Under the pieces are notes generated by a model, which saw only the letters and a program-made list of their open reading frames with translations, did not search any database and was not told the DNA's origin. This document shows positions 14,022-57,524 of a stretch of DNA of 64,000 nucleotides, one piece after another. The translations under genes were made by a program, and so were the position numbers. The DNA is taken from positions 62,001 through 126,000 of the forward strand of contig CASEZY010000003.1 in NCBI GenBank assembly GCA_949292635.1. The letters are read 5' to 3'. The stretch comes from an uncultured Methanomassiliicoccales archaeon. GTDB lineage: Archaea; Thermoplasmatota; Thermoplasmata; Methanomassiliicoccales; Methanomethylophilaceae. Within the stretch, counting starts at the first letter, position 1; each line of letters starts with the position of its first letter.

Positions 14022-14050
14022 AAGTTTGGTGAGACTGGGGATACCTATGT

Positions 14051-14060: not shown

Positions 14061-14096
14061 GATTTGCAATGATGATCGTCCGCCAGGCCCGATGTT

Positions 14097-33243: not shown

Positions 33244-33470
33244 TTTTCAATCCACGCACCCGCGAGGGGTGCGACGAACATCGATGGGTTTGGAATCAAT
33301 ATGCCTCTTGGCATTTCAATCCACACACCTATGAGAGGTGTGATTGTTAATGAGTTTGAGTGGAGTACAGAGGCTTTTCACCCATACATCCACTAGGATT
33401 CAACCATAGGTGATAAAGACGATCTCGAGTGATGTCTTTTTCAATCCACGTGCCCGCGAGGGAACGAAAC
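33244..33470 (-). CRISPR. Degenerate type I-C CRISPR array (fossil)
   Basis: Four repeat-like units of about 32 bp at about 33244, 33313, 33375 and 33438, spaced 62-69 bp. Units 1 and 2 keep the type I-C form: TTTCAATCCAC followed by a palindromic half (CGCACC...GGTGCG in unit 1, CACACC...GGTGTG in unit 2). Unit 3 keeps little beyond the TTTTCA...CATCCAC pattern; unit 4 keeps TTTTCAATCCACG. No two repeats are identical. Read on the minus strand, the array lies downstream of cas7 in the usual I-C order. Whether it is still processed is unknown. The rest of the 412-bp gap between valS and cas7 holds the valS terminator. Confidence 0.75.
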
Positions 33471-36162: not shown

Positions 36163-36842
36163 TCCGCACCACATCTGATTCCTACTCTGCGAGGTGTGTA
36201 GTTCTTGATGTGCTTGGACAGCGGGCACTGGTCGGGACGGATGAAATCCACGATGCCATCCCTCATCTCCGGGTACCAGAAACGTGCACGCAGGGAATCG
36301 TCTCCCGTCTCGTCGGCATAGTCGAAGCCGTGGAACATGATGTCAAACGTGCGGTCCGAGCCGTCGTAGGCGCCGGGACCTTCACCGAATGTGCAGGGCT
36401 CCACGTATCCCTGGCATTCGCGGGTTCCCAGGAAGATGTCCCTGTATCCTCCTTTGCTCAGGGCGCGATGGGCTATGTCGGAGTGCTTCCGCTCGTTGCA
36501 ATCGCCAGCTAGGTCCGGTCTGTGGGGGTTCCATATGAACCTGGCCCTGACCTGATACTCTACATTGTGGAGATATGTGTGAACGGTTCTGTCGTACGGG
36601 CTGTTGCTCCTGTTGTAATGGAGCGCTAGCATATTGACGGATTCGTTGAGGATCGGGTTGATGACGCGGAGCCTTTCGATGATCCAGATGATCGTCGGTT
36701 TCCAGTAGATGCTCTCGACTATGCCCTTTAGCGCCTGATATGTGGGTATGGGATAGGATGTTTTCTCGCCCCCGATCTTGGAGACGGGGTCACAGAACAT
36801 GGCGCGGCGGCCCCAAAGACGGAATTCTATAACGTTGTTCAT
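36159..36842 (-). CDS. cas5: Type I-C Cas5 (Cas5c/d), crRNA-processing subunit
   Basis: 227 residues: MNNVIEFRLWGRRAMFCDPVSKIGGEKTSYPIPTYQALKGIVESIYWKP is the RAMP start with the ferredoxin-like first strand, and FLGTRECQGYVEPCTFGEG follows in the middle. In type I-C this subunit replaces Cas6 as the pre-crRNA nuclease, using Tyr/Lys/His residues that I cannot place exactly. Its start is just downstream of the cas3 stop. Confidence 0.93.
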   Translation of the reverse strand: MNNVIEFRLWGRRAMFCDPVSKIGGEKTSYPIPTYQALKGIVESIYWKPTIIWIIERLRVINPILNESVNMLALHYNRSNSPYDRTVHTYLHNVEYQVRARFIWNPHRPDLAGDCNERKHSDIAHRALSKGGYRDIFLGTRECQGYVEPCTFGEGPGAYDGSDRTFDIMFHGFDYADETGDDSLRARFWYPEMRDGIVDFIRPDQCPLSKHIKNYTPRRVGIRCGAE

Positions 36843-36843
36843 C

Positions 36844-39891: not shown

Positions 39892-42687
39892 ATGGCCGCT
39901 CCCAACGCCAGACCTCCTGCCAGTAACATCGACTTGGTCAATCATGCATTGGAAATCATAAAGCCCCGGCTTCAGGACTTCGTGATCCGTAGCATGGAGG
40001 ATACCTTCGGCAGCAGGTGGTGGGACGATTGTGTGGTCGCTCGTAAGTTAGTCCTGAACGCCAGCAATTATCTACCGACCGGAGACGCGTCAGAAGCTGC
40101 CATCCGTTCATACATGGACATCACCCTCTGCATGAACATCATCTCGCAATATAAACTGGTCAACGACAGCAGTGTCAGGAGTGCCAATAATCCGCTCCAG
40201 GCGGTCCGCCGCGTGAGGAACTTCCAGAGTCACAACGGCCGTACCGATATTACCGACTCCGAGGCCGCCGGCATGGTCATGCAGGTGATAGCCCTCGATG
40301 AGTATATGTCCCTGGGCTGTGCGGACGGGCTCTGGGAGATTATGAGGTATCTGGGGCCTGCCGGCGTGAAGGTGGACCATCCCGTTGAGTGGAAGGACGT
40401 CACGACGGTAAAAACAGCAGGGAAGGAAGGTTCCGCTCCGGCGCATGTGCCATCTGAGAACGGTTCTCAGGCAGTGGAGGTTCGTGTCGTCGGTGAGACT
40501 GGGTCTCGCAATGACGACAAAACTAGCGTATCTGCCATGTGCATAGATGCCTGCGAGAGCTTCCGCCGGCGGCTGGAGGAGAAGCAGAAGGGCAATGGCA
40601 GCGTCGGACGTTCCACCTCCGAGATAAAGAGCATAACGCCATCCAACGGCGTTTACCACCTGTCATTGTATCACCCCATCATCCCGGATGAAAGCATGGG
40701 TATCACCATCGGCGGGTACGCCTTCGAATCCGACCGTGTCCGGTTCGAGAATTACAAGAAGGCCACCCAGACCATAGATCTGATAACAGAGGACCCAGAT
40801 CTGCGGCGTCTATTGGACTCCAATGACCCGGGACTGAAGAAGATCCTGTTCACCGATATGCTGTGGATCGTCAATCGTACCCGGGACTTCTATTCCTCGT
40901 TCAGTTATCATCTCGACAATCCGTCGATATGCGGTGCGCCGTCAGAACCTCTTGGAAAGACGTATCTGAATCTCTCCGACGAGCAGCGTAAGGCGGTGGA
41001 GATGAGCATGTCTGAGCCGCTGTCCTATGTCTGGGGTGTTCCCGGATCCGGTAAGACCCAGTACGTGCTAGCGACCACCATCATTGAATGTATCCGCAAA
41101 GGTCAAAGGGTTGCTGTGGTGGCACCCACCAACTCCGCCTTGGAGCAGGTGCTCAGAGGCCTTCTGCATTCGTTCGAGGGCATTCCCGAAGAGGAGAGGA
41201 TCATCAATCCAAGGGAGGATGTGGTGAGGATCGGAACTCCTACGTCGGAGTTCATGGACAACTATGGATACGTCTGCTACAGGAAGGACATGGTCAAGAA
41301 GATGGACGATCTGTTCAACGAGCTGTTGGAGCTCAGGGACATTCTCTCCGAGCGCAGATATGACGAATATCGTGGTCTCTGCGAATCCTCTTTGGAGAAA
41401 GCATCCTCGCTGGGTCAACATGACATCCAGGGCAGGAGGGCTGTGGTCTCCGCTTTGAAGCCGTTGATCGACCTCGTGAACGGGGACATGCGTCTTCGCC
41501 ATGAGAACATCTCCGTATTCGAGGACACCCTCAAGAGGGACATAAAGGCGTTGTACGACACCCTCTATCAGAACAGGGACAGGAGCGCGTATCTGAAAAG
41601 TAAGTTCCCCTCCATGTCCGTACAGAGTCTGGAGAAGGAGGTCGCGGACCGGGAGAAGAGGTTCGATGCCATGCGCAGACAGGGCGGTGTAGCCACCCCC
41701 GAGACGGCCAAGGTGGTGGCCATGACGCTCCCGCGCTTCATCATATCCTACGGTCCCTCTGCCGCGGACGGGAGGATCCCGCTGGACGTGGACCATGTGT
41801 TCGTGGACGAGGCGGGTTACTGCAACTGCATCCAGACCTACACGTTGTACTCCCTCGGTGTTCCGATAACGTTCCTGGGAGACCACATGCAGCTGGAGCC
41901 GGTCTGTGAGATCGAGTCGAAGCTTCTGAAGGCCGATTGCCTGAGCGGTGGTCAAGGCGGTCACGATTTCCTTTGGGATATGTCCTCTCTGCACTCTGAG
42001 CATCTGATGGACGGTGATATGGACAAGCTTTCCCGGACGTATCTGTTCGAGGATGAACCTGATTTCGCACATACGGCATATTCGCCGCTGACTACCACTC
42101 ACAGGTTCGGTTCGAACCTGGCGGAGGCGTTGGGTCGCTATGTCTACACCAAGGATGGTATCATCAGTGCCAGTGACCGTCCCTTGGAGGTCAAGATCAT
42201 AAGCGCATATGTGGACAAGTTCAATGAGAAGCAGGACAGGTTCCGGCGCCCCAATTCCGACGAGGAGCAGGCGAAGAAGTACTACAGGACCAACTCCGCC
42301 GAGGCGAAGGAGGTGTTCGGATACATCCGTGAGAACCTCTCGAAATCCGACGACTATGTGGTGCTCACGCCCTATACGGATCAACGCAAATATCTGCAGG
42401 AAGCGATTCCTCGGGATCGGGTCCTGACCATACACAGCTCTCAGGGGAGGGAGTGGGACACCGTCATCATATCGCTGGTGGATTGCCGTGCCAATGAGAA
42501 TCAAGGTGTCCTGATGCGCTTCACCAGCATCTTGCCTATCCCCGGAGAGGAGATCAAGGGTCTCAAGGTGATGAACACCGCACTGTCCAGGGCGAAGAAG
42601 AGGTTGGTCCTGGTCTGCGATGCGGAGTTCTGGGCATCCCGCAACGGTGAGCTCGTGGGGGACGTGGTGCGCTCGAATTACCCGTGA
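39892..42687 (+). CDS. HEPN-domain superfamily 1 helicase (probable defence protein)
   Basis: 931 residues. The N-terminal ~150 residues match a Swt1-like HEPN domain (RLQDFVIRSMEDTFGSRWWDD...) with an RX4H ribonuclease motif, RNFQSH (Arg109-His114). From about residue 360 follows a Upf1-like SF1 helicase: Walker A WGVPGSGKTQ, Walker B VDEAGYCN, motif III GDHMQLEPV, motif V SSQGREWDTV and motif VI NTALSRAKKRL. Such HEPN-helicase fusions are found in defence islands, where the HEPN RNase is thought to kill or arrest infected cells. It lies between the I-C locus and two CARF regulators, whose nucleotide-sensing fold often accompanies HEPN RNases. Confidence 0.85.
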   Translation: MAAPNARPPASNIDLVNHALEIIKPRLQDFVIRSMEDTFGSRWWDDCVVARKLVLNASNYLPTGDASEAAIRSYMDITLCMNIISQYKLVNDSSVRSANNPLQAVRRVRNFQSHNGRTDITDSEAAGMVMQVIALDEYMSLGCADGLWEIMRYLGPAGVKVDHPVEWKDVTTVKTAGKEGSAPAHVPSENGSQAVEVRVVGETGSRNDDKTSVSAMCIDACESFRRRLEEKQKGNGSVGRSTSEIKSITPSNGVYHLSLYHPIIPDESMGITIGGYAFESDRVRFENYKKATQTIDLITEDPDLRRLLDSNDPGLKKILFTDMLWIVNRTRDFYSSFSYHLDNPSICGAPSEPLGKTYLNLSDEQRKAVEMSMSEPLSYVWGVPGSGKTQYVLATTIIECIRKGQRVAVVAPTNSALEQVLRGLLHSFEGIPEEERIINPREDVVRIGTPTSEFMDNYGYVCYRKDMVKKMDDLFNELLELRDILSERRYDEYRGLCESSLEKASSLGQHDIQGRRAVVSALKPLIDLVNGDMRLRHENISVFEDTLKRDIKALYDTLYQNRDRSAYLKSKFPSMSVQSLEKEVADREKRFDAMRRQGGVATPETAKVVAMTLPRFIISYGPSAADGRIPLDVDHVFVDEAGYCNCIQTYTLYSLGVPITFLGDHMQLEPVCEIESKLLKADCLSGGQGGHDFLWDMSSLHSEHLMDGDMDKLSRTYLFEDEPDFAHTAYSPLTTTHRFGSNLAEALGRYVYTKDGIISASDRPLEVKIISAYVDKFNEKQDRFRRPNSDEEQAKKYYRTNSAEAKEVFGYIRENLSKSDDYVVLTPYTDQRKYLQEAIPRDRVLTIHSSQGREWDTVIISLVDCRANENQGVLMRFTSILPIPGEEIKGLKVMNTALSRAKKRLVLVCDAEFWASRNGELVGDVVRSNYP

Positions 42688-42852
42688 CGTATTCCGGACG
42701 GTGGCAAACAGTCAAAAATAATCTTTGATTGTCATCAAATCCCAATATATGTCTATCAGACAATCTTACCATCATGGATAAAGGGAAGATAGGCATGTCT
42801 CCGCGGTCTGTCGCGGATGTGGTACGGAACGGAAGCGCCGTGGGGTGCTGAG

Positions 42853-43521
42853 ATGCACATCCACATCGCGCCGGTGGGGTTCAGCAGGGAGCCGGTGCTG
42901 AAGGTGATCAGCAGGCTCCCGGGGATAGATGTGTTGTACCTTCTGCACACGGACAACCCGGTGTCGCTGGAAACCGCCCGGAGCATCAGGGACACCGTGT
43001 CCTGCATGATTCCCTCCATCAACCTTATCACCATCCCGTTCTCGGATTTCATGGGGATTGTGGCGACGATCTACAGCATCTTCGAGGACACCAAGGCAAA
43101 GGATGCGGAGTTCTCGGTGAACATAACCGGCGGCACCAATCTGATGGCCGCCGCGGTCTGCTACAGCTCGTATTACATCAGAGCTAAGATCTACTACTCC
43201 CTGAACAGCACCGACCCCATAGAGAGCCAGGTGATCGAGATCAATGCCCCCAAGGCGGTGGACGTCAGCGGCTACAGGGAGCTCACCCGGGATATCCTGC
43301 TGTACATGCTGGAATGCAGACGCAGGGACATCATGGTCACCAATTCCGATATCTCATCGAGATTCGGCATCAACAAGCAGAAGGCGGCGTACCACGTGAA
43401 GATACTGGCACATGACGGTCTCGTGGAGAAGAGGCCGTTCGTGGAAGGCGGTGTGCCGGATGCCCGCAGGAACGCCCTGGTGCTCACGGCACAGGGCGTG
43501 ATGATCGCCAACACCCTGTGA
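42853..43521 (+). CDS. CARF-winged-helix regulator (Csa3-like), copy A
   Basis: 222 residues from the ATG at 42853. The N-terminal Rossmann-like CARF domain begins MHIHIAPVGF and holds the ligand-loop motif VNITGGTNLMAAA; the C-terminal winged helix (DISSRFGINKQKAAYHVKILAHDGLV) would bind DNA. Such proteins sense cyclic oligoadenylates or related nucleotides and control CRISPR or defence genes. The stop is immediately followed by the end of copy B on the other strand, with no intergenic base. Codon choice is that of the host. Confidence 0.85.
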   Translation: MHIHIAPVGFSREPVLKVISRLPGIDVLYLLHTDNPVSLETARSIRDTVSCMIPSINLITIPFSDFMGIVATIYSIFEDTKAKDAEFSVNITGGTNLMAAAVCYSSYYIRAKIYYSLNSTDPIESQVIEINAPKAVDVSGYRELTRDILLYMLECRRRDIMVTNSDISSRFGINKQKAAYHVKILAHDGLVEKRPFVEGGVPDARRNALVLTAQGVMIANTL

Positions 43522-44187
43522 TCATTCACAGAGCCAGCTTGCCACAAGCCTGCCCTGTCCGGTCAGCTTGATGCTGTTGACCCTGTTGTTGGTCCTGCCC
43601 CCGGATTCCACTCCGCGGACCTTCTCCAGTAAGCCTTCCTCTTCCAACACGCGGAGGTGGTAGGATACGGTCTGCTTGTTCAGGCCGAAGGCGTCGGAGA
43701 TCATGGATGCGGTAAGTATGTCCTCCTGGCACTCCAGCACGTAGCGGAGGATGTCCTGGGTCTTGCCCTTGATGCGGTGCAGGTCCGGGGTCCTGGGGGT
43801 GGGTATCCATATGAGCTGCTCGGAGGCGCTCTTCTCCGGGTCCCGCAGGACGTAGCATATCTTGGCACCGACGAAGAACGCCGTGGAGCATGCCGCGGCG
43901 GCCATGAGGTTGGTGCCGCCGGTGATGTTGATGGAGAATGTGTTCTTGCTGCCCTCGTCCCTGAATATGGAGTATATGGTGTCCACGATGCTCTGGAAGT
44001 CGAAGCCGCTTATGGTGCGCATCTCCACATCCACCATCGCCCTGCCGAAGAAGTCCTCCAGGATGTGGGCGGATTCGGAGAACGCCCCGCTGATGAGGAT
44101 ATACACCTTGTCGATGCCGGGGATGGCGTTGAACGCCTTGATCACTGGTTCCACCGCCTGGCCGGCGGTGGCGATGTGGATGTGCAT
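43522..44187 (-). CDS. CARF-winged-helix regulator (Csa3-like), copy B
   Basis: 221 residues, paralogous to copy A: MHIHIATAGQAVEPVIKAF, then INITGGTNLMAAA and a wHTH (MISDAFGLNKQTVSYHLRVLEEEGLL). It is convergent with copy A and divergent from the Hsp70-like gene, 77 nt away, so it could control that promoter. The CARF loops of the two copies are nearly identical (N-I-T-G-G-T-N-L-M-A-A-A), which suggests the same ligand. Confidence 0.85.
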   Translation of the reverse strand: MHIHIATAGQAVEPVIKAFNAIPGIDKVYILISGAFSESAHILEDFFGRAMVDVEMRTISGFDFQSIVDTIYSIFRDEGSKNTFSINITGGTNLMAAAACSTAFFVGAKICYVLRDPEKSASEQLIWIPTPRTPDLHRIKGKTQDILRYVLECQEDILTASMISDAFGLNKQTVSYHLRVLEEEGLLEKVRGVESGGRTNNRVNSIKLTGQGRLVASWLCE

Positions 44188-44264: not shown

Positions 44265-45836
44265 ATGATAATCGGGATAGACTTCGGAACCTGCTATTCC
44301 AGTGCCGCGATCATGAACGGGCTCATACCCGTCACCACCTTCCTCAAAGACTCCACGGGCATGGGGGTCCCCTCATTGTTCATGTACTCCCAGGAGGAGG
44401 GCAGGGAGATGTACGGCGAGGAGTGCGAGACCGGTGCCGCCTTCAGGCACTCCTCGGACATCATCCGCTACATGAAGAGGACGGTCCGCGAGGACCCCGC
44501 CAACCTGGAGAAGACGGTATCCAGCGGAGGGAAGGAGTACAGGCTCAGCGAGGTCATCGAGAAGTACCTGACGTTCCTGATCAACGAGATCCGCACCGCC
44601 GCCATCAGGTCCGGGGAGTACGCCAACAACGAGATCGAGGCGGTGACCATCACCGCCCCGGTGGGCATCGCCAGCGGCCAGATGATGGCCTCCGAGTACA
44701 ACCGTCTGATCCAGGAGGCGGTGATGCGCATCACCGGCCTTCCCAAGGAGGACGTGAGGGTGCTGCAGGAGCCCGTTGCGGCTGCGGTTTCATATCTGTA
44801 CTCCCAGGATGTGAGGACCCACTACGACGGCATCCAGAAGATCCTGGTCTTCGACCTTGGCGGCGGAACGCTGGACGTGAGCATCGTGGAGCACGACCCC
44901 GCCACCATGGAATACAGGATCCTTGCGAAGGAGGGCGACCTGGAACTCGGCGGCAACGATTGGGATGCCGCCCTGAGGGACAGGATCATGGAGAAGGTGG
45001 GCCTGAAATGGCAGGGCACCCCGGAGGAGACCGCCAGGTTCGTGAAGGTGGTCACCAGGACCAAGGTGGAGCTGTCGGACGCTGACGAGTCGGTGGTGGT
45101 GTTCACCATGAACGGTCAGGACAGGTTCACCCGCATATCCCGCAGGGAGTTCGAGGACTGCACCTCCCATCTGCTGGAGAGGGCGATGGACGTGATGCAG
45201 CGTGCCTTGGACTTCGATCCCGAATGCGCCCCGGACAGGATCGTGCTGGTGGGCGGGAGCAGCAACATGCCCCAGATCGCCAGGGGGATCATCGAGAGGA
45301 CGGGATACGCCCCGGAGGACGTGTGCGTGTACGAGCCGTCGAAGGCGATCGTGAAGGGGGCGGCGGTGTTCGCCAAGCTCAACCACGCCTCGGACGGTTC
45401 CGCCGTCGGACCCAGGGTGCTGGACATGGCCACCCTCACCTACGGGTTCGACTCACGCTATCACGGCGAGAGGGAATGCATCTACAACATGATCTACAAG
45501 GGGGACCGCTTCGACGAGGACGGCCGTATAATCAGGAAGTCGGAATCCAGCTTCATCCCCCTGAGGGACAACCAGACCGTGGTCACCTTCGAGGTATATG
45601 AGTCCGAGTTCTCCCGGGAGGATTGTTTCGAGGAGAACTGGATCGACATGGGCTCCGGCGAGACCTACAACGGACTGAGGGTCTCGGTGCAGGTGCCGCC
45701 GGAGTACTTCGGCAAGGCCCGCGGGTTCCACATGTGGGCCACCATGTCCCTGGATTCCAACGGGATATTGGACATAACCGTCACCGATGCCGCCGGCAGG
45801 AGGCTGGCGTACGGCTCCACCGCCCTGGGGGAGTGA
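44265..45836 (+). CDS. Hsp70-like ATPase in the defence island
   Basis: 523 residues. It has phosphate-1 IGIDFGTCYSSAAI, phosphate-2 LVFDLGGGTLDVSIV and adenosine motif IVLVGGSSNMPQIA, then a beta-sandwich-like C-terminal part; the helical lid is missing. It is distant from the Hsp70-like protein at 7.6-9.1 kb and contains extra insertions. It is in an operon with the GrpE-like gene downstream (2-nt gap) and divergent from CARF copy B. Probably a specialised chaperone; substrate unknown. Confidence 0.87.
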   Translation: MIIGIDFGTCYSSAAIMNGLIPVTTFLKDSTGMGVPSLFMYSQEEGREMYGEECETGAAFRHSSDIIRYMKRTVREDPANLEKTVSSGGKEYRLSEVIEKYLTFLINEIRTAAIRSGEYANNEIEAVTITAPVGIASGQMMASEYNRLIQEAVMRITGLPKEDVRVLQEPVAAAVSYLYSQDVRTHYDGIQKILVFDLGGGTLDVSIVEHDPATMEYRILAKEGDLELGGNDWDAALRDRIMEKVGLKWQGTPEETARFVKVVTRTKVELSDADESVVVFTMNGQDRFTRISRREFEDCTSHLLERAMDVMQRALDFDPECAPDRIVLVGGSSNMPQIARGIIERTGYAPEDVCVYEPSKAIVKGAAVFAKLNHASDGSAVGPRVLDMATLTYGFDSRYHGERECIYNMIYKGDRFDEDGRIIRKSESSFIPLRDNQTVVTFEVYESEFSREDCFEENWIDMGSGETYNGLRVSVQVPPEYFGKARGFHMWATMSLDSNGILDITVTDAAGRRLAYGSTALGE

Positions 45837-46837: not shown

Positions 46838-46890
46838 TGGCATCTTCGTGTGTCGAATGCGTTTGACGCATTCTGACCGCGAAGATGCCA
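46838..46890. other. Large imperfect palindrome at the distal end of the II-A array
   Basis: Two 25-nt arms around a TTG loop: outer 11 bp (TGGCATCTTCG/CGAAGATGCCA) and inner 8 bp (GAATGCGT/ACGCATTC) pair perfectly, with a 6-nt internal mismatch. It ends three bases before the last repeat. On the array's transcribed (minus) strand a T5 run follows at about 46812-46816. It may terminate the pre-crRNA or be the end of a mobile element. Confidence 0.7.
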
Positions 46891-46893
46891 GTA

Positions 46894-48184
46894 GTTGGGG
46901 AACCCTCAAGATTGACAACACTCTCAAACTTATTGTATGTGTCTAAATGAGATTCAATGGTTGGGGAACCCTCAAGATTGACAACACTCTCAAACACAGT
47001 AGAGCCGGAGACAGTCACCGTATCGGTTGGGGAACCCTCAAGATTGACAACACTCTCAAACTCTTCATTCTCGCCATTTTGCAATTTAATAGTTGGGGAA
47101 CCCTCAAGATTGACAACACTCTCAAACCAGGGTGGATACCCGTGTCCCTGCCGTCCTGTTGGGGAACCCTCAAGATTGACAACACTCTCAAACGTTTGAG
47201 CGTGGGATTCGACAGAAGAGAACGTTGGGGAACCCTCAAGATTGACAACACTCTCAAACCAGATTCAACCGACCTGTCTGAGATGATGCGTTGGGGAACC
47301 CTCAAGATTGACAACACTCTCAAACTATGACGTGCTAGTATTAATAATTTTGTATGTTGGGGAACCCTCAAGATTGACAACACTCTCAAACAATGAAAAT
47401 GTGGGGGACGGAGTGTACAAGGTTGGGGAACCCTCAAGATTGACAACACTCTCAAACTGCGGCCGATGATTCATGGTATCACCTCACGTTGGGGAACCCT
47501 CAAGATTGACAACACTCTCAAACGTCCCTGCGCTGGGAATTGTTCGAGTTAAGGTTGGGGAACCCTCAAGATTGACAACACTCTCAAACATTGTTTGGGG
47601 CGAGCGTTACACTAGTTGCGTTGGGGAACCCTCAAGATTGACAACACTCTCAAACTGACCGGGCCTAAATCGGAGTTCCGCACCGGTTGGGGAACCCTCA
47701 AGATTGACAACACTCTCAAACCTTACATTCGTCATATCTATCTTCTCCGTTGTTGGGGAACCCTCAAGATTGACAACACTCTCAAACACGACTGGGCACG
47801 CGAAGAGCGGAACGGCGGTTGGGGAACCCTCAAGATTGACAACACTCTCAAACTCGCGGGACGTTGCGATCAGATAATGCGCGGTTGGGGAACCCTCAAG
47901 ATTGACAACACTCTCAAACAAAATACGGGATTCCGTCCTAGATACCCCTAGTTGGGGAACCCTCAAGATTGACAACACTCTCAAACTATCTTACTCCCTG
48001 ACTTTGACAGAAGCCTGTTGGGGAACCCTCAAGATTGACAACACTCTCAAACACCAGTGAATGCCACCGCGCCGGACCGGTGGTTGGGGAACCCTCAAGA
48101 TTGACAACACTCTCAAACATTAAAATATCTCCAAACCTTCTTAGCACCGTTGGGGAACCCTCAAGATTGACAACACTCTCAAAC
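46894..48184 (-). CRISPR. Type II-A CRISPR array, 20 repeats / 19 spacers
   Basis: Twenty copies of a 36-bp repeat that appear identical. On the transcribed minus strand they begin GTTTGAGAGTGTTGTC and end GGTTCCCCAAC. Spacers are 30 bp (one of 31). All repeats, including the distal one, look perfect, so the array is probably active. The leader side is at 48184, next to csn2. No spacer was seen to match the rest of the window by eye. Confidence 0.98.
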
Positions 48185-48868
48185 CTCAAATAGGTTGCCA
48201 TTGGGCCCAATCTCAAGCTCACAGCGGTCTGTATCTATGATTTTGGTCGGGACGTTATCATTTGGAAATGTATTCTCAATCAACAAAATGGGTGTGTTTG
48301 AATACTCCAGTTGTTTCACCAGTTCCGAATAGTCCTCTTTGCTGAGGAATTTGTCAAGATTGACTATTATGGCAAGTCTCTTGGATCCATATTCGGACAT
48401 CAGTCTGACATATTCGCACACCCTCTCCGGTAGTGATTCCGGTTCAATCATTCCTACGGACATGACTTTCAGCAACGCTTGGATCGTCACGTCCCCAGAA
48501 GAGGATCCTGCTTCGATCTCTGTGGAAACCGTTGTGATGTAGTTGGTCAGAGCAGATATCGCGTCTTGAACCTCTAGGAAACTGTCACCGCATTCCAGTT
48601 CCTTGGTGATGGTCTTGTGCAGCCCTGTTATGATCTCCTTGGCATTGCAGGTGATGGAAAACGGGTCGATGATCATATGTGTATTCTTGGACAACTCGAT
48701 GTTCTTGGAACCGTCAGATAATACGAACCGACCATCGTATCCTGAGATCTGGCTTTGGAGTTCGCCCACGGCACGTCCCAGTTCACCGGGCTCCTCTATG
48801 GTCAACCGCCTCAGTGCATGTTCGTTAAAATCAATCGGAGTGGAGAAGAGAAAATGGCTGAGCATCAT
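48179..48868 (-). CDS. csn2: Type II-A adaptation protein Csn2
   Basis: 229 residues of the Csn2 family, which forms a DNA-end-binding ring used in spacer uptake. Seen are SGYDGRFVLSDGSKNIELSKNTHMIIDPFSI at residues 42-72 and ...RLAIIVNLDKFLSKEDYSELVKQ in the C-terminal half. It overlaps cas2 by 4 nt. The last Val codon and the TGA stop are the first six bases of the first CRISPR repeat (GTTTGA). Confidence 0.92.
   Translation of the reverse strand: MMLSHFLFSTPIDFNEHALRRLTIEEPGELGRAVGELQSQISGYDGRFVLSDGSKNIELSKNTHMIIDPFSITCNAKEIITGLHKTITKELECGDSFLEVQDAISALTNYITTVSTEIEAGSSSGDVTIQALLKVMSVGMIEPESLPERVCEYVRLMSEYGSKRLAIIVNLDKFLSKEDYSELVKQLEYSNTPILLIENTFPNDNVPTKIIDTDRCELEIGPNGNLFEV
48185..48191 (-). 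promoter_or_regulatory. Leader-anchoring motif ATTTGAG inside csn2
   Basis: Read on the minus strand, the seven bases before the first repeat are ATTTGAG, matching the leader-anchoring sequence that guides spacer integration in streptococcal type II-A systems. Here the motif is coding sequence (the Leu-Phe-Glu end of csn2), so the leader and csn2 share DNA. Confidence 0.75.
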
Positions 48869-49170
48869 AGTACCACGAATCTGTCAAGGGTGTCAAGTAC
48901 CTCTTTTTGCGCTTCACCGACGATTATCTCAATCTGTTGGAACTGGCGTTCGGTAACCGTAAGCATTTGAACGTTCCCTTTCGGAGGTCTGTGGCTGATG
49001 ACATCCTTTTTGATTGTCTGAACTGCGGCGCCATTCATGGCTATCTTACAGTAGACGGATTTTTGGACCATGATGAAGCCGTGAACTTGGAGGTACTTAC
49101 GGAATTTCGTATAGTTCCGCCTGTCCTCGGATGTCTCGACCGGCAGGTCAAAGTATACAATCAGTCTCAT
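48865..49170 (-). CDS. cas2: CRISPR adaptation nuclease Cas2
   Basis: 101 residues from the ATG at 49170: MRLIVYFDLPVETSEDRRNYTKFRKYL is the ferredoxin-like Cas2 start with the conserved Asp in FDLP, and RPPKGNVQMLTVTERQFQ follows. It overlaps cas1 by 23 nt and csn2 by 4 nt. The Cas1-Cas2 complex integrates spacers. Confidence 0.95.
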   Translation of the reverse strand: MRLIVYFDLPVETSEDRRNYTKFRKYLQVHGFIMVQKSVYCKIAMNGAAVQTIKKDVISHRPPKGNVQMLTVTERQFQQIEIIVGEAQKEVLDTLDRFVVL

Positions 49171-50047
49171 CGCCCGTATCCTCATAGTCACAGAAAACCA
49201 TCATCTCCGGATCGTTGTTCTCTAGAGCTTCGGTGACGCTCTTCACATAAATCGGCAGAGCGGTGTTCAGATACATCCGCTTGCCATTGAGCATCACTGG
49301 TGTGTTGAGTATGGCAGCCATGCTTCTTTTGCAGGAGATATCAAACTCATCCGGCAACAGTTTCAGAGTCAGACTGTCAACCAGGGGACGAAGGGGTTCG
49401 ATGATATCACAGCCCAGATTGAACTGGTTGTAGGTGTTGTCATGGAAGATGCCAATCTGAGTTGTGTACCCGAGACAAACGATCTCTCTGTTTATGGCTG
49501 ACAAAAGAATCGCATACCCGTAGTTCAGACAAGCATTGATAGCCCCGCCATTCTTCCGGGAGAATGTAATACCGAAGAGGGAATTGAAGTAGACCTTGGC
49601 GGCGTGCCCTTCGCGATTGGTCCCATCCATCCATTCAACGTTCTCCGCATAGCCGAACAGCATGGCGGCTCGATCGGTATCATAGTGATTCAGGAGGGTG
49701 GCCTGGTTGATGATCTTCTGTCTGACGATGGCGGCCCAAACGTTACCTTTGGAATCCTCGGTCCACCTTATCTGACTGCGGAGTTTTGCCGGGGAGTCGT
49801 GACACCCACAGTATGGTACAATCTCTCCGTAGGGGTTGTGGGTCTCGTCACAGAATATCACCTTGATCTTCCGCTTGGTCAGTTCGCAGAGGAGCATGGC
49901 CGTCATGGACACTGCGGTACTTTCAATCAGCAACACGGAGATTTCGGAAAGGTGGACCTTCCTAATCTCCGTGTTGCGAATCACCATGTATCCAAGTTTG
50001 AGATCAAGCTTGGAGTTGCTGGAAATCACCACCGTTCTCCAGGTCAT
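49148..50047 (-). CDS. cas1: CRISPR integrase Cas1 (type II)
   Basis: 299 residues, type II branch: WRTVVISSNSKLDLKLGYMVIR at the start, then the metal-binding Glu in LNYGYAILLSAINREIV, His in IGIFHDNTYNQFNLGCDIIEPLRP (with Asp). Length and motif order match Firmicutes type II-A Cas1. It starts 2 nt after cas9. Confidence 0.95.
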   Translation of the reverse strand: MTWRTVVISSNSKLDLKLGYMVIRNTEIRKVHLSEISVLLIESTAVSMTAMLLCELTKRKIKVIFCDETHNPYGEIVPYCGCHDSPAKLRSQIRWTEDSKGNVWAAIVRQKIINQATLLNHYDTDRAAMLFGYAENVEWMDGTNREGHAAKVYFNSLFGITFSRKNGGAINACLNYGYAILLSAINREIVCLGYTTQIGIFHDNTYNQFNLGCDIIEPLRPLVDSLTLKLLPDEFDISCKRSMAAILNTPVMLNGKRMYLNTALPIYVKSVTEALENNDPEMMVFCDYEDTGDETDCIL

Positions 50048-50049
50048 GC

Positions 50050-53000
50050 TCAGTTCAACTTCACTCTATTTTCTATGAGCCCAGAAGGTGACTGATTGAC
50101 AAGCCAGACGTCAACATCTGATGGCAATTGACAATTAAACTGAATCCTCCCAGTAGTTGCTACACCACCTATTTTCTTAAGATTTGCATACACTGGTTTA
50201 CATTGGAACGGCTGTAAGGCCTGATTCAATATTTCCGCCTGAGTCATCAGGTCACTGGATATGAATGCATCTAGACATTTCTTAAGATTGGAGGAGAATG
50301 AACCCAAACTCTTGCTGTATGGATGTTTAAGACTCTTCTCCATCAGGACATTATATAGGCATACATTTTCTTCTGCAGATATCCCATAGTAGTCTGGGCT
50401 TTTCACCGTTTTATTTTTGAAATCTTCGCTTATGTCAAACAGTTTTCTACAATATTTGTATAGTGTGTCAGGAAGCAAGAGCGGGAGTGCCGGTTGGAAA
50501 ATGATGTAGTCATTGGTTCTTTTTCCAGTACGGTACGGTATCCCATCGCGTTCTATCAGGCTGTCCATCTTAATACACGGTAATATGACCTTTACATCCA
50601 TCCCCTTTAGTTTTGAGAAGTGAGCTTCTAGTTCAGCCTTGTTTTTAAGAAGGTGCACTTTGTGGAGATGCAATACCTGCAATGCCCGAATTGTTTTACC
50701 TTTTTCCTTGTACTCTATCAATGAATAGCAAGCCCCTTTCTCATTATCAAATCCACCATAACGATCGGATGGCCTGTTCTGTTTCCTATCGAAGAGGGTC
50801 GCTTTGGCCCTTGTAAGGTTGTCATCAAACAGCGGCCCCTTCTGCATGTATGTGTGTCTGGTGGACAGGATGTTATCTCTGCGCATGTACTTGCGAACAG
50901 TCGCCTCTGTCCCTTCCGGCCCTGGGATCCATGCGGTGACCCCATCACGGATGACGGGGTTGTTGTACATCTTTGCCAGGTTGTAATGCTCTCCAGAACC
51001 TACGAATCTGGACACATCCTCGGCGAACTTGGTATGGTATGTGTTGCCGACGACTATGTTCAAGTACGCATCCTTGGCGTGGTGAAGATCGTTCACCGAT
51101 CTGCACTTCAGCAGATCCAGTTTGTTACGGAAATCCGATACCAGTCCGGCCCTGGAATAGACGACCTTGGTATTTTCGCCGAACATCTGGTTGAGGACAT
51201 CGATCGTGGTGGATACTGACTGGTTGGTCTCTACCAACTGACGGTTGATGAACTTGGCCAGCTCATCCTCGGTGAACGGGGTGCTGCGGACTAAACGTGA
51301 GTACTTCTCCTTGGTGATGTACTCCTTTCTCAGCAGTTCGTCCCAGAGAGCCTTCTGCTCTTTGCGTATCTCCGGCGGAAGCGGATACCTGTCGCTTTTG
51401 GCCTGGTTGCACGCCTTGTGGGCTAGTACAAGGTTGTTGTGTATGCTGTCGTCCTTGATCTTCGACTGAGGGTAGATATGATCCCTGTCAACGAGCTCTG
51501 TGTTGTCGATGTCGTTGATGTCGATGGTCTTGCCGCAATACATGCATCTGCCGAGTTGGGTGAGATAGAGGTACAGACTGCGTTTCTTGAGTTCCGCCTC
51601 TTCTTTACTGTCCAGGAGGTTGATCCAATATGGGTCTTCCCCGCAGTTCTTGTACAGTTCTGCAAGTTTGGTCTTACGGGAGTCCTTTCTCTTGCCCTTC
51701 TCGTCGCCGGTAGCATCGCGGGTGGTCTCCACGAACACCTTCTTGGGCGGGTGCCCTACACACTTCACGATATCCTTCACAACGGCAATCGTACGCCAAA
51801 CGCTGCGCTTGACGGCGGGAGACACATATCTGGCCTCCAGTGACTTGTATGTGACCTCTTGGTCAGCGGTTTGCGCCTTGTTGTGCTTGTCGATCTGGTC
51901 TTTGAATGAGTATTTGTGCAGAAGCTCCATCAGATTGTCGTTGGTGGATTCCAACATCCCCATGATATTGGTCCTCTGTCCCGTCTCTCTGCAGGTGTCA
52001 TAGAGCCCGGTGAGCAGTTTGGACGACAGTCTGCCCCAGCCGATGAAAGTGAGTTTGGACAGCTGCTCAATCTCCTTGTCGGTGAGCTCGCCGGAGTGAT
52101 CTTTCTTCAATTTGGCTTTTATACGGATCCTTTCGCCAAAGACGGTGATGGTCCTTATGACGTCCTCGGCGAGCCTGTGATCGTTCACTTTGTCGCCAAT
52201 GATCTTTTTGAGGGTGTGCAGTGGTTTAAGATTGGATTTTATCGGATCGTCCACACCGGTGATCTCCGGCTTCTCGGTGGCATCGATGAGCCCCTCTCTC
52301 TTCAGATAATCGGTGATGACCTTCTTGGTGACCTTTCCACTGTTATTCACGAACAGGTCCGTGATCAACTTTTTCTTAAGACCGACGGGAATGAGGTCGC
52401 CGTTGATTCTGAGTTTGTTGATCTCGTTATAGAGTGTGAAGTACGAGTACAAAATGGAGTTCTTGGGCAGCACTTTCTCCCCCACCATGTATGTACAGTA
52501 GTTGGTGAGCCTGTCCATGAAGTTCTCCGCGGACTTGTCGTAATCGATTATCTTCTCGATGTTCCACGGTGTGATGTGTTCGAAGGAGTTGCGTACGGCC
52601 CAGGCCTTCTCCGATCTGGTATCCAGCGGACCAACATAGTATGGGATCCTGAATTCCTGTATCATCAACATCTTGGTGGCAACATCGAAACCGCTGTCAT
52701 CCACCCGCGTCAGGAACGGGTAGTGCTTCGATACATTCTTCAATAGGGCATTGAGCTCCTTCCTGTGAACGGTGTAGGGCAGGATGCTGTTGTTCCTGCT
52801 GGTCTGCTTCGGCATGAATGTGCCTTCTTTCAGACGTGCCATCATGTCCGCCAGGTTCTCATCGTCCTTTGCCGAAGTCTTATCGAGAATCTTGTAGACG
52901 AATTCGCAGAACTCTTCCTGATTGCAAGTCTTTTCGGGCTTACCTTTGCCACAGACGTTGACATATGAGCAATAGTTCCCTTTCATGCTCTTGTCCTTGG

Positions 53001-54015
53001 CCTTGAAGATGTCGTTGTATTTGTCGGGAACATACTGTTTAACCACTCTTTTCAGAAGGCGGAGGTCCGCGGTATGTTGCTCGAATTCTGCAATTTTGAC
53101 TTCGGAGATGCAATTATGACCGGAAAGGATGGAGGATAGTGCTCCCCAATCATACAGCTGCTTGGCGATCCTCAGTGTGCGCATCTGGTCCGGATACGAG
53201 TCCTCCAGTTCAGCGATGGCATCTTCGGCCGAGGCCTCTTTGAATGATACGGACGAATTGTTCAGCTCATCATCACCGAATATGATCCCGAGTTTCACCT
53301 TCCCGCCGGCTAGTAGGCCGATGATATCTCCGGTGGCATCGCCACATTCGATGACATCTTTGAGCAGTTTCTTCTTGTCGGTGATCCCTATATTCCTGTT
53401 CTTCAGTATGTCGGCAAGCTTGTCCTTGTCTGCGATGCTGAGTTCGATATCGTACTTCTCCAAGTCGTTGACGAACTCGTTGACCATGTCCTCGAACTTG
53501 GGGTCTTCGTCGGATTCGTCGGTCTTGAAAAGGAAGTGCCCTCTGAACTTGATGATGTTGTGGCATGCAAGGTAGACCAACCGTATGTCTGGTTTCTCAT
53601 CCGTCTCCATGAGATATTTGCGGAGGTGGTAGATCGTCGGGAATCTGCGGTGATATTCCTTATCGTCGAATCCAGGGTCGTTGAACAGGCTGTTCTTCTG
53701 GTTCACCCTCTTGTCATCGGCGAAGAGGCCGCTGTCGTCAAGCCTTTCGAAGAAACTGGGGTCCACCTTACAGATCTCTTCGGAGAAGAGTTCGCGCAGA
53801 AGCGTGATCCTCTGTTTCCTTCTGTTCAGGCGGCGTCTTGCTACCCTGTGCAAACGGCGGTCCTTGGCGGTCTTCCCCTCTTCGAAGAGATGGATGCCCC
53901 ACATGGCCTTCCTGCAATACTCCAGGATGTTGTAATCCGGGTCGGTCACTGCCCAACCCACAGAATTGGTTCCGATATCTAGGCCGAGATAGTAGTCCTT
54001 GATCTCCTTGCTCAT
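50050..54015 (-). CDS. cas9: Type II-A Cas9
   Basis: 1321 residues from the ATG at 54015 (AGGTG just upstream); the open frame to 54051 adds 12 unlikely residues. Catalytic residues are intact and near the S. pyogenes positions: RuvC-I Asp13 (YLGLDIGTNSVGWAV), RuvC-II Glu763 (VFVETTR), HNH His846 (DRDHIYPQSK), RuvC-III His979/Asp982 (HHAKDAYLN). The Arg-rich bridge helix (HRVARRRLNRRKQR) follows RuvC-I, and the C-terminal region has a DRYGGFDNEKG block of the type II-A PAM-interacting domain. First gene of cas9-cas1-cas2-csn2. Confidence 0.98.
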   Translation of the reverse strand: MSKEIKDYYLGLDIGTNSVGWAVTDPDYNILEYCRKAMWGIHLFEEGKTAKDRRLHRVARRRLNRRKQRITLLRELFSEEICKVDPSFFERLDDSGLFADDKRVNQKNSLFNDPGFDDKEYHRRFPTIYHLRKYLMETDEKPDIRLVYLACHNIIKFRGHFLFKTDESDEDPKFEDMVNEFVNDLEKYDIELSIADKDKLADILKNRNIGITDKKKLLKDVIECGDATGDIIGLLAGGKVKLGIIFGDDELNNSSVSFKEASAEDAIAELEDSYPDQMRTLRIAKQLYDWGALSSILSGHNCISEVKIAEFEQHTADLRLLKRVVKQYVPDKYNDIFKAKDKSMKGNYCSYVNVCGKGKPEKTCNQEEFCEFVYKILDKTSAKDDENLADMMARLKEGTFMPKQTSRNNSILPYTVHRKELNALLKNVSKHYPFLTRVDDSGFDVATKMLMIQEFRIPYYVGPLDTRSEKAWAVRNSFEHITPWNIEKIIDYDKSAENFMDRLTNYCTYMVGEKVLPKNSILYSYFTLYNEINKLRINGDLIPVGLKKKLITDLFVNNSGKVTKKVITDYLKREGLIDATEKPEITGVDDPIKSNLKPLHTLKKIIGDKVNDHRLAEDVIRTITVFGERIRIKAKLKKDHSGELTDKEIEQLSKLTFIGWGRLSSKLLTGLYDTCRETGQRTNIMGMLESTNDNLMELLHKYSFKDQIDKHNKAQTADQEVTYKSLEARYVSPAVKRSVWRTIAVVKDIVKCVGHPPKKVFVETTRDATGDEKGKRKDSRKTKLAELYKNCGEDPYWINLLDSKEEAELKKRSLYLYLTQLGRCMYCGKTIDINDIDNTELVDRDHIYPQSKIKDDSIHNNLVLAHKACNQAKSDRYPLPPEIRKEQKALWDELLRKEYITKEKYSRLVRSTPFTEDELAKFINRQLVETNQSVSTTIDVLNQMFGENTKVVYSRAGLVSDFRNKLDLLKCRSVNDLHHAKDAYLNIVVGNTYHTKFAEDVSRFVGSGEHYNLAKMYNNPVIRDGVTAWIPGPEGTEATVRKYMRRDNILSTRHTYMQKGPLFDDNLTRAKATLFDRKQNRPSDRYGGFDNEKGACYSLIEYKEKGKTIRALQVLHLHKVHLLKNKAELEAHFSKLKGMDVKVILPCIKMDSLIERDGIPYRTGKRTNDYIIFQPALPLLLPDTLYKYCRKLFDISEDFKNKTVKSPDYYGISAEENVCLYNVLMEKSLKHPYSKSLGSFSSNLKKCLDAFISSDLMTQAEILNQALQPFQCKPVYANLKKIGGVATTGRIQFNCQLPSDVDVWLVNQSPSGLIENRVKLN

Positions 54016-54053
54016 TACAACACCTGTGTCGTTAATTATCCAAGTTTGCACAA

Positions 54054-54063
54054 ACTATTAAAA
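54054..54063. promoter_or_regulatory. Shared TATA-like box between cas9 and tracrRNA
   Basis: ACTATTAAAA lies between the divergent cas9 and tracrRNA. Forward, with AAA before it as BRE-like, it is about 26 nt before the predicted tracrRNA start at 54086. Reverse (TTTTAATA) it lies about 40 nt before the cas9 ATG. No good bacterial -10/-35 pair is visible. Confidence 0.5.
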
Positions 54064-54085
54064 GATGTTTTGAAATTGGAGTTCC

Positions 54086-54165
54086 GACAACACAAGTTCA
54101 AATAAGGCATTGCCGGAATCGCCCGTAAGGGCCCCGCAATCGGCGGGATTGTGCTGTCACTTTTC
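54086..54165 (+). ncRNA. tracrRNA of the type II-A system
   Basis: Anti-repeat GACAACAC-AAGT-TCAAAT (54086-54103) pairs with the crRNA repeat start: lower stem GUUUGA/UCAAAU (6 bp), a GA/AAGU bulge, and upper stem GUGUUGUC/GACAACAC (8 bp), the same layout as S. pyogenes. AAGGC...GCC (nexus) follows, then hairpins GCCC-GTAA-GGGC (54121-54132) and CCCGC-AATCG-GCGGG (54133-54147) and a short T-run at about 54161. It is transcribed divergently from cas9, as in S. pyogenes. Exact ends are inferred. The remainder of the gap to 54358 holds no gene. Confidence 0.9.
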
Positions 54166-54358
54166 CTTATTTCACGGAAATATATGTTGTTTCTACTGTA
54201 GCACTTTTTGTGTCGAAAAAGTTGTGTTTATGGGATTGTAAGTTGAGCCTTTTCTTGCACGGTGCATGCAAATTGGATCAGAACTCTGGCAATACGTTCG
54301 TATCCAGTAGAGTTGCGGTAGAAAAAGGTGGTCTGTGCTGTTAATAATCAGGACGTGT

Positions 54359-55987
54359 CTATTGGACGTTCATCGCCCTGCCCGAGGACCTAAGCGCATC
54401 TGTGTTCAATTCACTCCCGTCAAGCACCAACTTCCCGTTGATGAACACCTTCTCGATCCCGAAGGCCCTCTGCTGATCCGGCACACCGTTCTTTACGGCA
54501 GCTTCATCGAAGACGGTCACGTCGGCGAAGCACCCCTTCCTCAGGTAGCCCCTATCCCGAAGCATGAACCTGTCCGCCGTGGCCCCGGTCATCCTGCGGA
54601 CGGTGTTCGGCAATGTATCTCCCGTACCCAACAGCGAATCCCTCAGGAACTTGGGGAAGCAGTCGTAGATCGCCGGCTTCTGAATGCCGTAGTCCTCCAC
54701 CCAGGCGTCCGTCATGTACAGGCATAACGGATTCTTCTCGAACTCGCTTATGATCTCCGGGGTGGTGCACGGTCCAAGACTTATCCTTCCGTGGAATCCG
54801 CTTAACTCGCAGAGTTTGAGATACATATCCACGTCGCCCATCCCCTCCTCCTGAGCGATCCGATGCACCGATTTGCCCTCGAACCTCTCGTATCCCGGGC
54901 CTATGTACGCGACGACCATGTCATCGAAGCCGAATCCCAGCAGACGCGTGGCGGCGGCAGCCAGGATCTTCAGCCTCATCCTCACGAAAGCGGAATCTCT
55001 TTTCTCCCGGGGCATCGCCTGATACCACACAGGAAGGATCACCGTGATCACCGACAGTCCCCGCAGCTGGTTGTAGATGTCGAACATCACATCCACGCCC
55101 TCACTGCGCATATGGTTGACCAGCCTCACGAACTCGTCCTTGTCCCCCAGGGACTTGCGCCCCATGAAGATGGCGTGGGAGATCTGCAGCTTGAGGTCCG
55201 TGCCCTTCGAGATCTCCACCAGCTCGTCCACCGCCCTCAGCAGATGGGACCTCCCGAACAGGCCCTTGTACGACGTGGATATCTTCGACAGTGCGCGGGA
55301 GTGCACCGTCAACGGCTTACCGTACTTCACGCACAGAGCCGCGACCTTCCTCAATTCGTCAAGGTCGGCGTACATCCCCGGCTCGTACATCAGCCCCAGC
55401 GACAACCCCGCGGCACCTTCCCTGAGGCCGTCCTCCATCAGACGGAGCATGTGCCCCTCCTCCTCTTCGGTGAGCTTCCCGCTGTGGTTGCCGCCCACCG
55501 CCGCCCTGGCGGTGCAGTGACCCACGATCACCGCGATGTTGCACGGTGTGTTGCCGTCTATCGCCTTCAGATAGTCACCGACGGAGCCGTAGGCTCCGGT
55601 GGAATCCCTGAAGTTGAACAGCCCGCCGCCCATCTCGTCCAGATGCTCATCATTGTCGAAGCCTACCGCGGAGATCCCGCAGTTGCCGGTCACGAATGAC
55701 GTTATGCCCTGGCGGATGAAGGGTTCGAAGTACGGCAATGGATCGTTCTTGGTGGCGAACCAGTCGTTGTGGGAATGCGCATCTATGAACCCCGGGGCCA
55801 CCGACTTGCCTGATACGTTGATTATCTCCGCGTCGGCGTCGATGTGCTCCGCAACGTCGATTATACGGTCGCCGTCGATCAGCACATCCCCCATGAAGGG
55901 CTCGGAACCGGTGCCGTCGTAGATCTTCCCGTTCCTCAGCAGGATCAACGGCGGCGCCCCCGGTTCAGTCCTGAACGACTTCCACAC
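54359..55987 (-). CDS. N-acyl-D-amino-acid deacylase-type amidohydrolase
   Basis: 542 residues of the D-aminoacylase/dihydroorotase-like branch. N-terminal beta domain (LLRNGKIYDGTGSEPFMGDVLIDG), HxH-type metal site DAHSHNDW, GITSFVTGNCGIS with the metal Cys, and later VGHCTARAAVGG, LQISHAIFMG and the C-terminal GYLRKGCFADVTVFD. It would hydrolyse N-acyl-D-amino acids or related amides. Its start overlaps the DEAD-box helicase gene by 23 nt. Confidence 0.88.
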   Translation of the reverse strand: MWKSFRTEPGAPPLILLRNGKIYDGTGSEPFMGDVLIDGDRIIDVAEHIDADAEIINVSGKSVAPGFIDAHSHNDWFATKNDPLPYFEPFIRQGITSFVTGNCGISAVGFDNDEHLDEMGGGLFNFRDSTGAYGSVGDYLKAIDGNTPCNIAVIVGHCTARAAVGGNHSGKLTEEEEGHMLRLMEDGLREGAAGLSLGLMYEPGMYADLDELRKVAALCVKYGKPLTVHSRALSKISTSYKGLFGRSHLLRAVDELVEISKGTDLKLQISHAIFMGRKSLGDKDEFVRLVNHMRSEGVDVMFDIYNQLRGLSVITVILPVWYQAMPREKRDSAFVRMRLKILAAAATRLLGFGFDDMVVAYIGPGYERFEGKSVHRIAQEEGMGDVDMYLKLCELSGFHGRISLGPCTTPEIISEFEKNPLCLYMTDAWVEDYGIQKPAIYDCFPKFLRDSLLGTGDTLPNTVRRMTGATADRFMLRDRGYLRKGCFADVTVFDEAAVKNGVPDQQRAFGIEKVFINGKLVLDGSELNTDALRSSGRAMNVQ

Positions 55988-57392
55988 GGATGTGCTTGCC
56001 CTTGTGCTTCGCCTTGGTCAGGTCCATGGTCATGCGGTTGGCGAAGTCCCTGTGCACCTGCACCAGGGACTCGTCGGCGCCCAGCTCGATCTTGCCGATG
56101 GAGGTGTCGTGGATCCTGGCGTTGCGGATGATGAAGTCCGCCAGCGAGACCTTACCGTAGCCGTCGTCCTTGCCCAGGTTCACCTTGAAGTAAACCATGC
56201 CGAAGGGATCCGCGATCTGGTCGTAATCGATGACCTTCTTCACCTTGTCCTTGGCCCCCTCGGGGAGCTCCGGCACCGCCATCTTCTCGATCAGCATGTC
56301 GGTGCGCCTCTGGAACTCGGTGACCAGGTGCTCTTCGGATGATGTCACAAAGGACACCGCGGTGCCCTCCTTCCCGGCCCTTCCGGTCCTGCCGATCCTG
56401 TGGATGTAGGTGTCCACCATCTCCGGCATGTCGTAGTTGATCACGTAGGTGATGTCCTCGATGTCGAGTCCTCTGGCGGCAACGTCGGTGGCGATGAGAA
56501 TATCTATTTTATCGGTGCGGAGGTCGTTAATGACTCTCTCCCTCTTCGTCTGCGGCAGATCGCCGTGGATGGCCTCCACCTTGTATCCCAGCTTGTCCAG
56601 GCGCTCCTCCAGCATGTCCACCATCTTGATGGTCTGGCAGAAGATGATGAACTTGTCCTTCTCACCGGAGTCCAGCAGCCTGCACAGGGCCCAGGACTTG
56701 TTACGCCTGCCCACGGGGATGTAGTACTGTTTGGTGAGGTCCAGAACGACCTCGTCCTCGGAGACGGTGATCTCCTTGGGCTCCTTCATGTAATCATAGG
56801 CGAGACGCTTCACGTTCTCGGCCATGGTGGCGGAGAACAGCAGGGTCTGCCTCTCCCTGGACATGGCCTTCAACAGGAACTCGATGTCCTCGATGAATCC
56901 CATGTCCAGCATGCGGTCCGCCTCGTCGAGGACGAAGACCTGAATGTGGGTGAGGTTCAGCGCTCCCCTGGTGACCAGATCCCTCACTCTACCGGGGGTA
57001 CCGGCGATTATGTCCGCACCCTTGGCGATGGTGGTTATCTGCTTCTCGATGTCGGCCTTCCCGCCCTGGCCCCCGTATACCGGCACGCAGACGTGGCCGG
57101 TGTACTTGGCCAGCTTGGTCATCTCCCTGTAGCACTGCAGGGCCAGCTCCCTGGTCGGGAGGAGAATGATTGATGTGGGCAGCTGCTGCCCGGCGGGGAT
57201 CCTTCCCAGGATGATGGAGCCGAAGGCACCGGTCTTTCCGGTACCGGTCTGGGCCTGCCCGAACATGTCGCGGCCCTCGATGCCCAAACGGATGGTGGCG
57301 GTCTGGATGGGGGTGGGCTCCTCCCATCCCATGTCAGTCATCGCCTTGGCGACCTCTTCCGGGACGCCGATCTGTGTGAAATTCTCGATCAT
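55965..57392 (-). CDS. DEAD-box RNA helicase
   Basis: 475 residues. Q motif at the start, motif I AQTGTGKTGAF, Ia PTRELALQ, II VLDEADRM, III FSATM and VI HRIGRTGRAG, followed by a ~75-residue C-terminal domain (...FKVNLGKDDGYGKVSLADFI...RNARIHDTSIGKIEL) like the RNA-binding domain of DbpA/CsdA. It probably acts in rRNA maturation or cold stress. TTTATAAG at about 57457, some 65 nt upstream of the start, is the likely promoter. Confidence 0.94.
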   Translation of the reverse strand: MIENFTQIGVPEEVAKAMTDMGWEEPTPIQTATIRLGIEGRDMFGQAQTGTGKTGAFGSIILGRIPAGQQLPTSIILLPTRELALQCYREMTKLAKYTGHVCVPVYGGQGGKADIEKQITTIAKGADIIAGTPGRVRDLVTRGALNLTHIQVFVLDEADRMLDMGFIEDIEFLLKAMSRERQTLLFSATMAENVKRLAYDYMKEPKEITVSEDEVVLDLTKQYYIPVGRRNKSWALCRLLDSGEKDKFIIFCQTIKMVDMLEERLDKLGYKVEAIHGDLPQTKRERVINDLRTDKIDILIATDVAARGLDIEDITYVINYDMPEMVDTYIHRIGRTGRAGKEGTAVSFVTSSEEHLVTEFQRRTDMLIEKMAVPELPEGAKDKVKKVIDYDQIADPFGMVYFKVNLGKDDGYGKVSLADFIIRNARIHDTSIGKIELGADESLVQVHRDFANRMTMDLTKAKHKGKHIRVEVVQD

Positions 57393-57524
57393 GTGATCAT
57401 ATCCTGCCTGAGACTCGAACCCAGACTTCCTTTTCTCGCCCCTCGTATATACTTATCTTATAAAGGGATGCGCCGAGGGGCAGGGTGATCCGACGGGGCG
57501 CGGAGACATTCCCGCTTCGGCCAT

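Follow-up and report, generated by a model that had tools for sequence, protein, structure and literature searches.

How a complete type II-A CRISPR-Cas9 locus came to lie in the chromosome of a methanogenic archaeon, and whether it works there, is the question raised by the DNA described here. The locus lies in a window of 64,000 nucleotides (the whole stretch that was analysed; contig CASEZY010000003.1 of assembly GCA_949292635.1, positions 62,001 to 126,000), and a first-pass annotation had taken it to be newly acquired, by horizontal transfer, from a gut Firmicute. Sequence comparison points elsewhere: the locus is very probably a working type II-A immune system and a member of a long-established archaeal II-A branch in the Methanomethylophilaceae.

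The first-pass annotation had claimed a complete II-A locus with a 20-repeat array and a tracrRNA, and this description was borne out by intact cas9, cas1, cas2 and csn2 genes, in that order on the minus strand, by their profile matches and by identical repeats, the tracrRNA being predicted (Table 1). The spacers are of 30 nt, except one of 31 nt. The catalytic residues that had been named for Cas9 were also correct: D13, E763, H979 and D982 of RuvC and H846 of HNH are all kept in the window protein and are invariant in six archaeal Cas9s despite identities of 41-56%. The Csn2 is a short form, and its similarity to Csn2 chains of solved structure is weak but significant. Its gene runs into the first repeat, so there is no separate leader in the window locus; the overlap, as read from the sequence, has the first repeat supplying the TGA stop codon of csn2, and csn2 likewise extends into the array in two related genomes, G020 and G110. 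The ATTTGAG motif was found at the same place before the first repeat in 6/6 archaeal arrays. It is the leader end of group-1 II-A systems and is required for II-A acquisition in Streptococcus thermophilus (PMC5382924). The II-A cas1 is the single PF01867 match genome-wide. The G+C content of the locus is 0.48-0.51, compared with about 0.60 in its surroundings.

Table 1. Features of the II-A locus and its neighbours, in window coordinates
Feature	Position	Strand	Description
Type I-C effectors cas3, cas5c, cas8c, cas7c	33497-39192		all full length
Swt1-like HEPN and AAA helicase protein; two divergent CARF-HTH (Csa3-like) proteins	39892-44187		between I-C and II-A
HSP70-like protein	44265-45836		after the CARF-HTH proteins, along with a coiled-coil protein
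CRISPR array	46894-48184	-	20 identical 36-nt repeats GTTTGAGAGTGTTGTCAATCTTGAGGGTTCCCCAAC, 19 spacers
csn2	48179-48868	-	229 aa; TIGR01866 125.7 bits (cut-off 35); PADLOC Csn2 169 bits
Leader end motif ATTTGAG	48185-48191	-	abuts first repeat, within csn2 3' end
cas2	48865-49191	-	108 aa; TIGR01573 70 bits
cas1	49148-50047	-	299 aa; TIGR03639 (type II Cas1) 295 bits
cas9	50050-54015	-	1321 aa from ATG, stop TGA; TIGR01865 855 bits; Pfam Cas9_REC/PI/BH/HNH_4
TATA-like box ATTAAAAG	54057-54064	+	proposed tracrRNA promoter; ends 21 nt before anti-repeat
Predicted tracrRNA	54086 to about 54166	+	anti-repeat GACAACACAAGTTCAAAT, nexus AAGGC, two G+C-rich hairpins, T-rich end

The host, a methanogen, belongs to the archaeal Methanomassiliicoccales group. 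McrA was found in its genome (G000), together with matches, in pieces, to an archaeal SSU rRNA model; since the same model matches bacteria too, McrA is the stronger sign of an archaeal host. The genome is 99.9% complete and is held in 21 contigs, a fragmentation that would allow for an assembly or binning artefact in which a piece of bacterial contig had been placed in an archaeal bin. Such an origin is scarcely credible, as the locus is embedded in a contig of 160 kb, its right flank (54356-57471) matches a genome of the same genus (G005) at 90% nucleotide identity, and the homologous locus of G020 is found on one contig of 1.89 Mb. A chimeric contig is unlikely on the same grounds, other genomes also carrying the locus, and the archaeal chromosome that the first-pass annotation gave as the location is upheld.

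The homology with G005 breaks off sharply at 54356, just beyond the end of an amidohydrolase gene, and beyond that point G005 carries a type I-E set of cas3, cas8e, cas11, cas7, cas5, cas6 and cas1. The I-E set lies next to the same amidohydrolase gene (L237, G005:C13:92000-108000, at 6767-15058). The position of the I-E genes, at the site of the window II-A, identifies one chromosomal site that is occupied by II-A in the window species and by I-E in a sister species, and on this alignment it is a site at which CRISPR types are exchanged. The type I-C effectors of the window have no cas4, cas1 or cas2 beside them and just three degenerate repeats (33243-33462), and judged by this gene content the nearby I-C set is a decaying second CRISPR system. 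The II-A locus appears to be the sole system of the genome to have kept adaptation genes of its own. The genes at 39892-44187, with the HSP70-like and coiled-coil proteins, make up a defence island.

The first-pass annotation had also suggested a search of related Methanomassiliicoccales, and this proved productive. Of 147 genomes from the order, 8 gave a Cas9 above cut-off, all of them in one family, the Methanomethylophilaceae, with complete II-A loci in five besides that of the window (G020, G110, G015, G002 and G071) and a cas9 at a contig edge in G012. The relatives were found by an alignment scan; a single-protein scan of genome contigs gave none. In a sample of 390 genomes from across the phylum, the same family was the only one with a Csn2 above cut-off. 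The archaeal II-A arrays range from 16 to 75 repeats and no spacer is common to two loci.

Three observations stand beside this distribution. A 10-kb contig binned as Methanimicrococcus (Methanosarcinales; L057, WRDC01000056.1) encodes a Cas9 that falls inside the archaeal II-A group, and shares its tracrRNA form and its TATA-like spacing with the other archaeal loci; either the II-A system has spread to a second order or the contig is wrongly binned. The single-contig archaeal genome G014 has an open Cas9-like frame of 946 codons (L029 6562-9402, G014:C1) that matches REC and HNH but lacks the RuvC segments of the two ends. No cas1, cas2, csn2 or array lies nearby, and the frame is either a remnant or a re-used Cas9. 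One in-frame TAG each was found in cas1 of G020 (codon 94; L023) and csn2 of G071 (codon 61; L027), and as PylS is present in both genomes pyrrolysine may be read at these codons. The window genome has no PylS above cut-off and no in-frame TAG.

The tracrRNA gene lies just upstream of cas9 on the opposite strand, and in the window its product is predicted to pair with the repeat through an upper stem of 8 bp and a lower stem of 7 bp, with fold z-scores of -2.95 for the tracrRNA and -3.47 for a repeat-tracr chimera. A tracrRNA with the nexus AAGGC is common to seven archaeal loci and absent from every tracrRNA found in the bacterial loci examined, and the pairing of its hairpins is kept via two-sided changes among these seven sequences only. 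Those of G110 and G002 were picked up by a motif search and missed by a duplex-energy search. In 7/7 archaeal loci the best TATA-like box, scored with a matrix that is our own approximation, ends 21-22 nt upstream of the anti-repeat; in 0/2000 shuffled controls did the best boxes of all seven loci fall within 17-27 nt. Transcription in archaea starts roughly 21-22 nt past the TATA box, so the tracrRNA would begin at the anti-repeat, and it probably starts already trimmed. In the archaeal loci the pairing of repeat and anti-repeat ends near the predicted start, after an upper stem of 8-12 nt, with weak scattered pairing past it in G002 and G020, whereas in the four bacterial loci compared the pairing continues, in two of them beyond a small internal loop (read by eye). 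The tracrRNA gene looks as though it has been refitted to archaeal transcription.

The nearest archaeal Cas9 is 56% identical to that of the window, archaeal identities range from 41 to 56%, and those with bacteria reach at most 42% across 80 loci from public genomes, a set that was chosen via two Cas9 peptide motifs, so that closer bacterial relatives could be missing from it. Trees of Cas9 and Cas1 with II-A, II-B, II-C and archaeal members had been proposed in the first-pass annotation; those built contained the II-A and archaeal members. A branch with support of 100 set all archaeal Cas9s apart (a FastTree of 77 rows and an IQ-TREE of 33), and one with support of 94 did so for all seven archaeal Cas1s. 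In the Cas9 tree, which has no II-B or II-C outgroup, the archaeal proteins form their own branch beside Clostridia Cas9s from csn2-bearing loci. Most of the bacteria next to them are Clostridia that have II-A operons, and the Firmicutes named earlier are likely to be the ultimate source.

The recency of that transfer is a different matter. A recent arrival of II-A from bacteria in this archaeon alone would be in keeping with the low G+C of the locus, with the rarity of the system in the order (8/147 genomes) and with the abrupt end of the G005 flank homology at 54356, but it is very improbable given Cas9 identities that are higher to archaea than to any bacterium in the set, a single archaeal group in both trees, and a tracrRNA form that is common to the archaeal loci, was unseen in the bacterial loci examined and is preceded by a constant promoter-like spacing. 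Had the window genome gained the locus recently, another archaeon would be the likelier donor, since G000 has a Cas9 that groups with those of genus g4, and G002, a member of the same genus as G000, one that groups with g12. This disagreement between Cas9 grouping and host genus also implies that the loci have moved between archaea or have been unevenly lost. The same disagreement, along with the patchy distribution, would equally be expected from several separate transfers into archaea out of one unsampled bacterial group, and the collection scan, which sampled Cas9 through two motifs only, leaves room for such a group. That history is unlikely, though it carries more weight than a recent arrival, because the AAGGC tracrRNA occurs in all archaeal members and in no bacterial one of the set examined, and because the TATA-like spacing of 7/7 loci suggests long residence in archaea. 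Taken from the trees and the tracrRNA, the history was probably one old entry from Firmicutes, followed by exchange and loss among archaea.

Whether the system works depends in part on the host. If maturation of crRNA in II-A systems needs RNase III and bacterial promoters, the locus could be a non-functional passenger. Archaea have been stated to lack RNase III (PMC12669027). RNase III-like genes were nevertheless found in 91 of the 147 genomes of the order, G000 included. The G000 protein (L044 3405-4328, G000:C1) scores below the TIGR02191 cut-off and above the Pfam RNase III cut-offs, and carries a pair of RNase III domains, of which the second is degenerate in its motifs, in an arrangement that resembles a one-chain dimer. 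The ERLEFLGD-type motif is kept (QRLEFLGDS in G000), as is a downstream D..EA motif; no Pfam match to a dsRNA-binding domain was found in this protein. An RNase III match is missing in Cas9-positive G071, which is 86% complete, and in G014, which has the Cas9 remnant only.

A sign of use comes from a spacer of a related locus. Spacer 5 of G110 matches 28/30 positions in two IMG/VR contigs and 25/30 in a provirus gene of G118, and the gene matched in the two contigs also occurs in proviruses of the same archaeal family; the best match of 514 bacterial II-A spacers against the same 433 kb was 24/30. The two mismatches in the 28/30 match fall at positions 22 and 28, on the side where the seed is expected, a placement that might, in this single case, have been left by viral escape. 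The 19 spacers of the window itself had no target in annotated phages, 102 family genomes or the viral contigs searched. A set of 41 spacers gave no match to annotated phages and weak partial matches only, not counted as targets, to the 102 family genomes. The best match of a window spacer, that of spacer 18 in G024, was rejected, as 21 nt pair at the 5' end and the 3' seed end fails, and an exact scan for spacer 18 among viral contigs gave nothing. Matches with 5-6 mismatches in housekeeping genes (L141, L035, L139) were taken as chance, and a scan with the L163 terminase returned distant contigs only.

The lack of protospacers for the window's own spacers and the degenerate stand-alone Cas9 of G014 are what a passenger might be expected to show. 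A passenger is nonetheless quite improbable when the host has an RNase III-like gene, the catalytic residues have been kept across 41-56% identity, the arrays hold 16 to 75 repeats with nothing shared between loci, and a G110 spacer has a 28/30 viral match. These conserved features suggest that the window system is very probably functional.

A working system with a long archaeal past might be pictured as follows. The module would have entered the archaeal group once from Firmicutes and later been exchanged among its members and lost from some, using, at least here, a site where whole CRISPR loci swap. Cas1, Cas2, Csn2 and Cas9 would insert new spacers at the junction of ATTTGAG and repeat, at the csn2 end, and the array would be transcribed together with the operon. 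On the opposite strand an archaeal TATA promoter would set the 5' end of the tracrRNA at the anti-repeat, giving from the outset a short anti-repeat (an upper stem of 8-12 nt and a lower stem of 7 nt) instead of a long one trimmed by RNase III. The crRNA would be matured by an RNase III-like enzyme of the host or by another RNase, and Cas9 would cut viral DNA through its HNH and RuvC sites. A fuller version, in which an ancient, self-sustaining archaeal II-A has a tracrRNA born trimmed, a duplex cut by the small archaeal RNase III, and pyrrolysine at TAG in cas1 or csn2 of some hosts, is tentative and stands a little short of an even chance.

Type II-A has been treated as bacterial, and here it would form a lasting branch in Thermoplasmatota-type methanogens. 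The crossing of domains by a tracrRNA system becomes testable in terms of a new promoter, a shorter anti-repeat and a host RNase. The group is also a source of Cas9s that are about 40% identical to bacterial ones and presumably work inside methanogens, and different CRISPR types have been shown to occupy one site in sister species.

Class 2 systems have been described in archaea before. A 2025 survey (PMC12669027) placed type II-D in DPANN, with a scatter of other class 2 systems across Methanobacteriota and Thermoproteota. The open literature searched gave no account of II-A from Methanomassiliicoccales, which does not exclude one. Type V-A of Methanomethylophilus alvus and Methanoplasma termitum (PMC7145573) is a class 2 system from the same archaeal group as the window, but its effector is Cas12a, whereas the window locus has Cas9, csn2 and a tracrRNA. 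Type II-D (Cas9d) of DPANN archaea (PMC12669027) likewise combines Cas9 and a tracrRNA in an archaeon, and was rejected as a class for the window since its Cas9 of 1321 aa scores 76.8 bits on NF049971, against a Cas9d cut-off of 375, and csn2 is present. Type II-B was rejected because the fourth gene is csn2 and there is no cas4 between array and cas9, and type II-C, which has neither csn2 nor cas4, is ruled out by csn2. By every feature that could be tested the window locus is type II-A, in an unexpected host. It shares with the II-A systems of Firmicutes (S. pyogenes, S. thermophilus and the gut Clostridia L059 and L060) the order cas9-cas1-cas2-csn2, repeats of 36 nt with spacers of 30 nt, the ATTTGAG leader end, a tracrRNA beside cas9 and the domain layout of Cas9, residues 6-1017 of which match solved chains of the S. 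pyogenes protein. It differs from them in its archaeal host, in a Cas9 at most 42% identical to theirs and in the AAGGC nexus, and with the other archaeal loci it has an anti-repeat whose pairing ends after 8-12 nt and a TATA-like promoter spacing.
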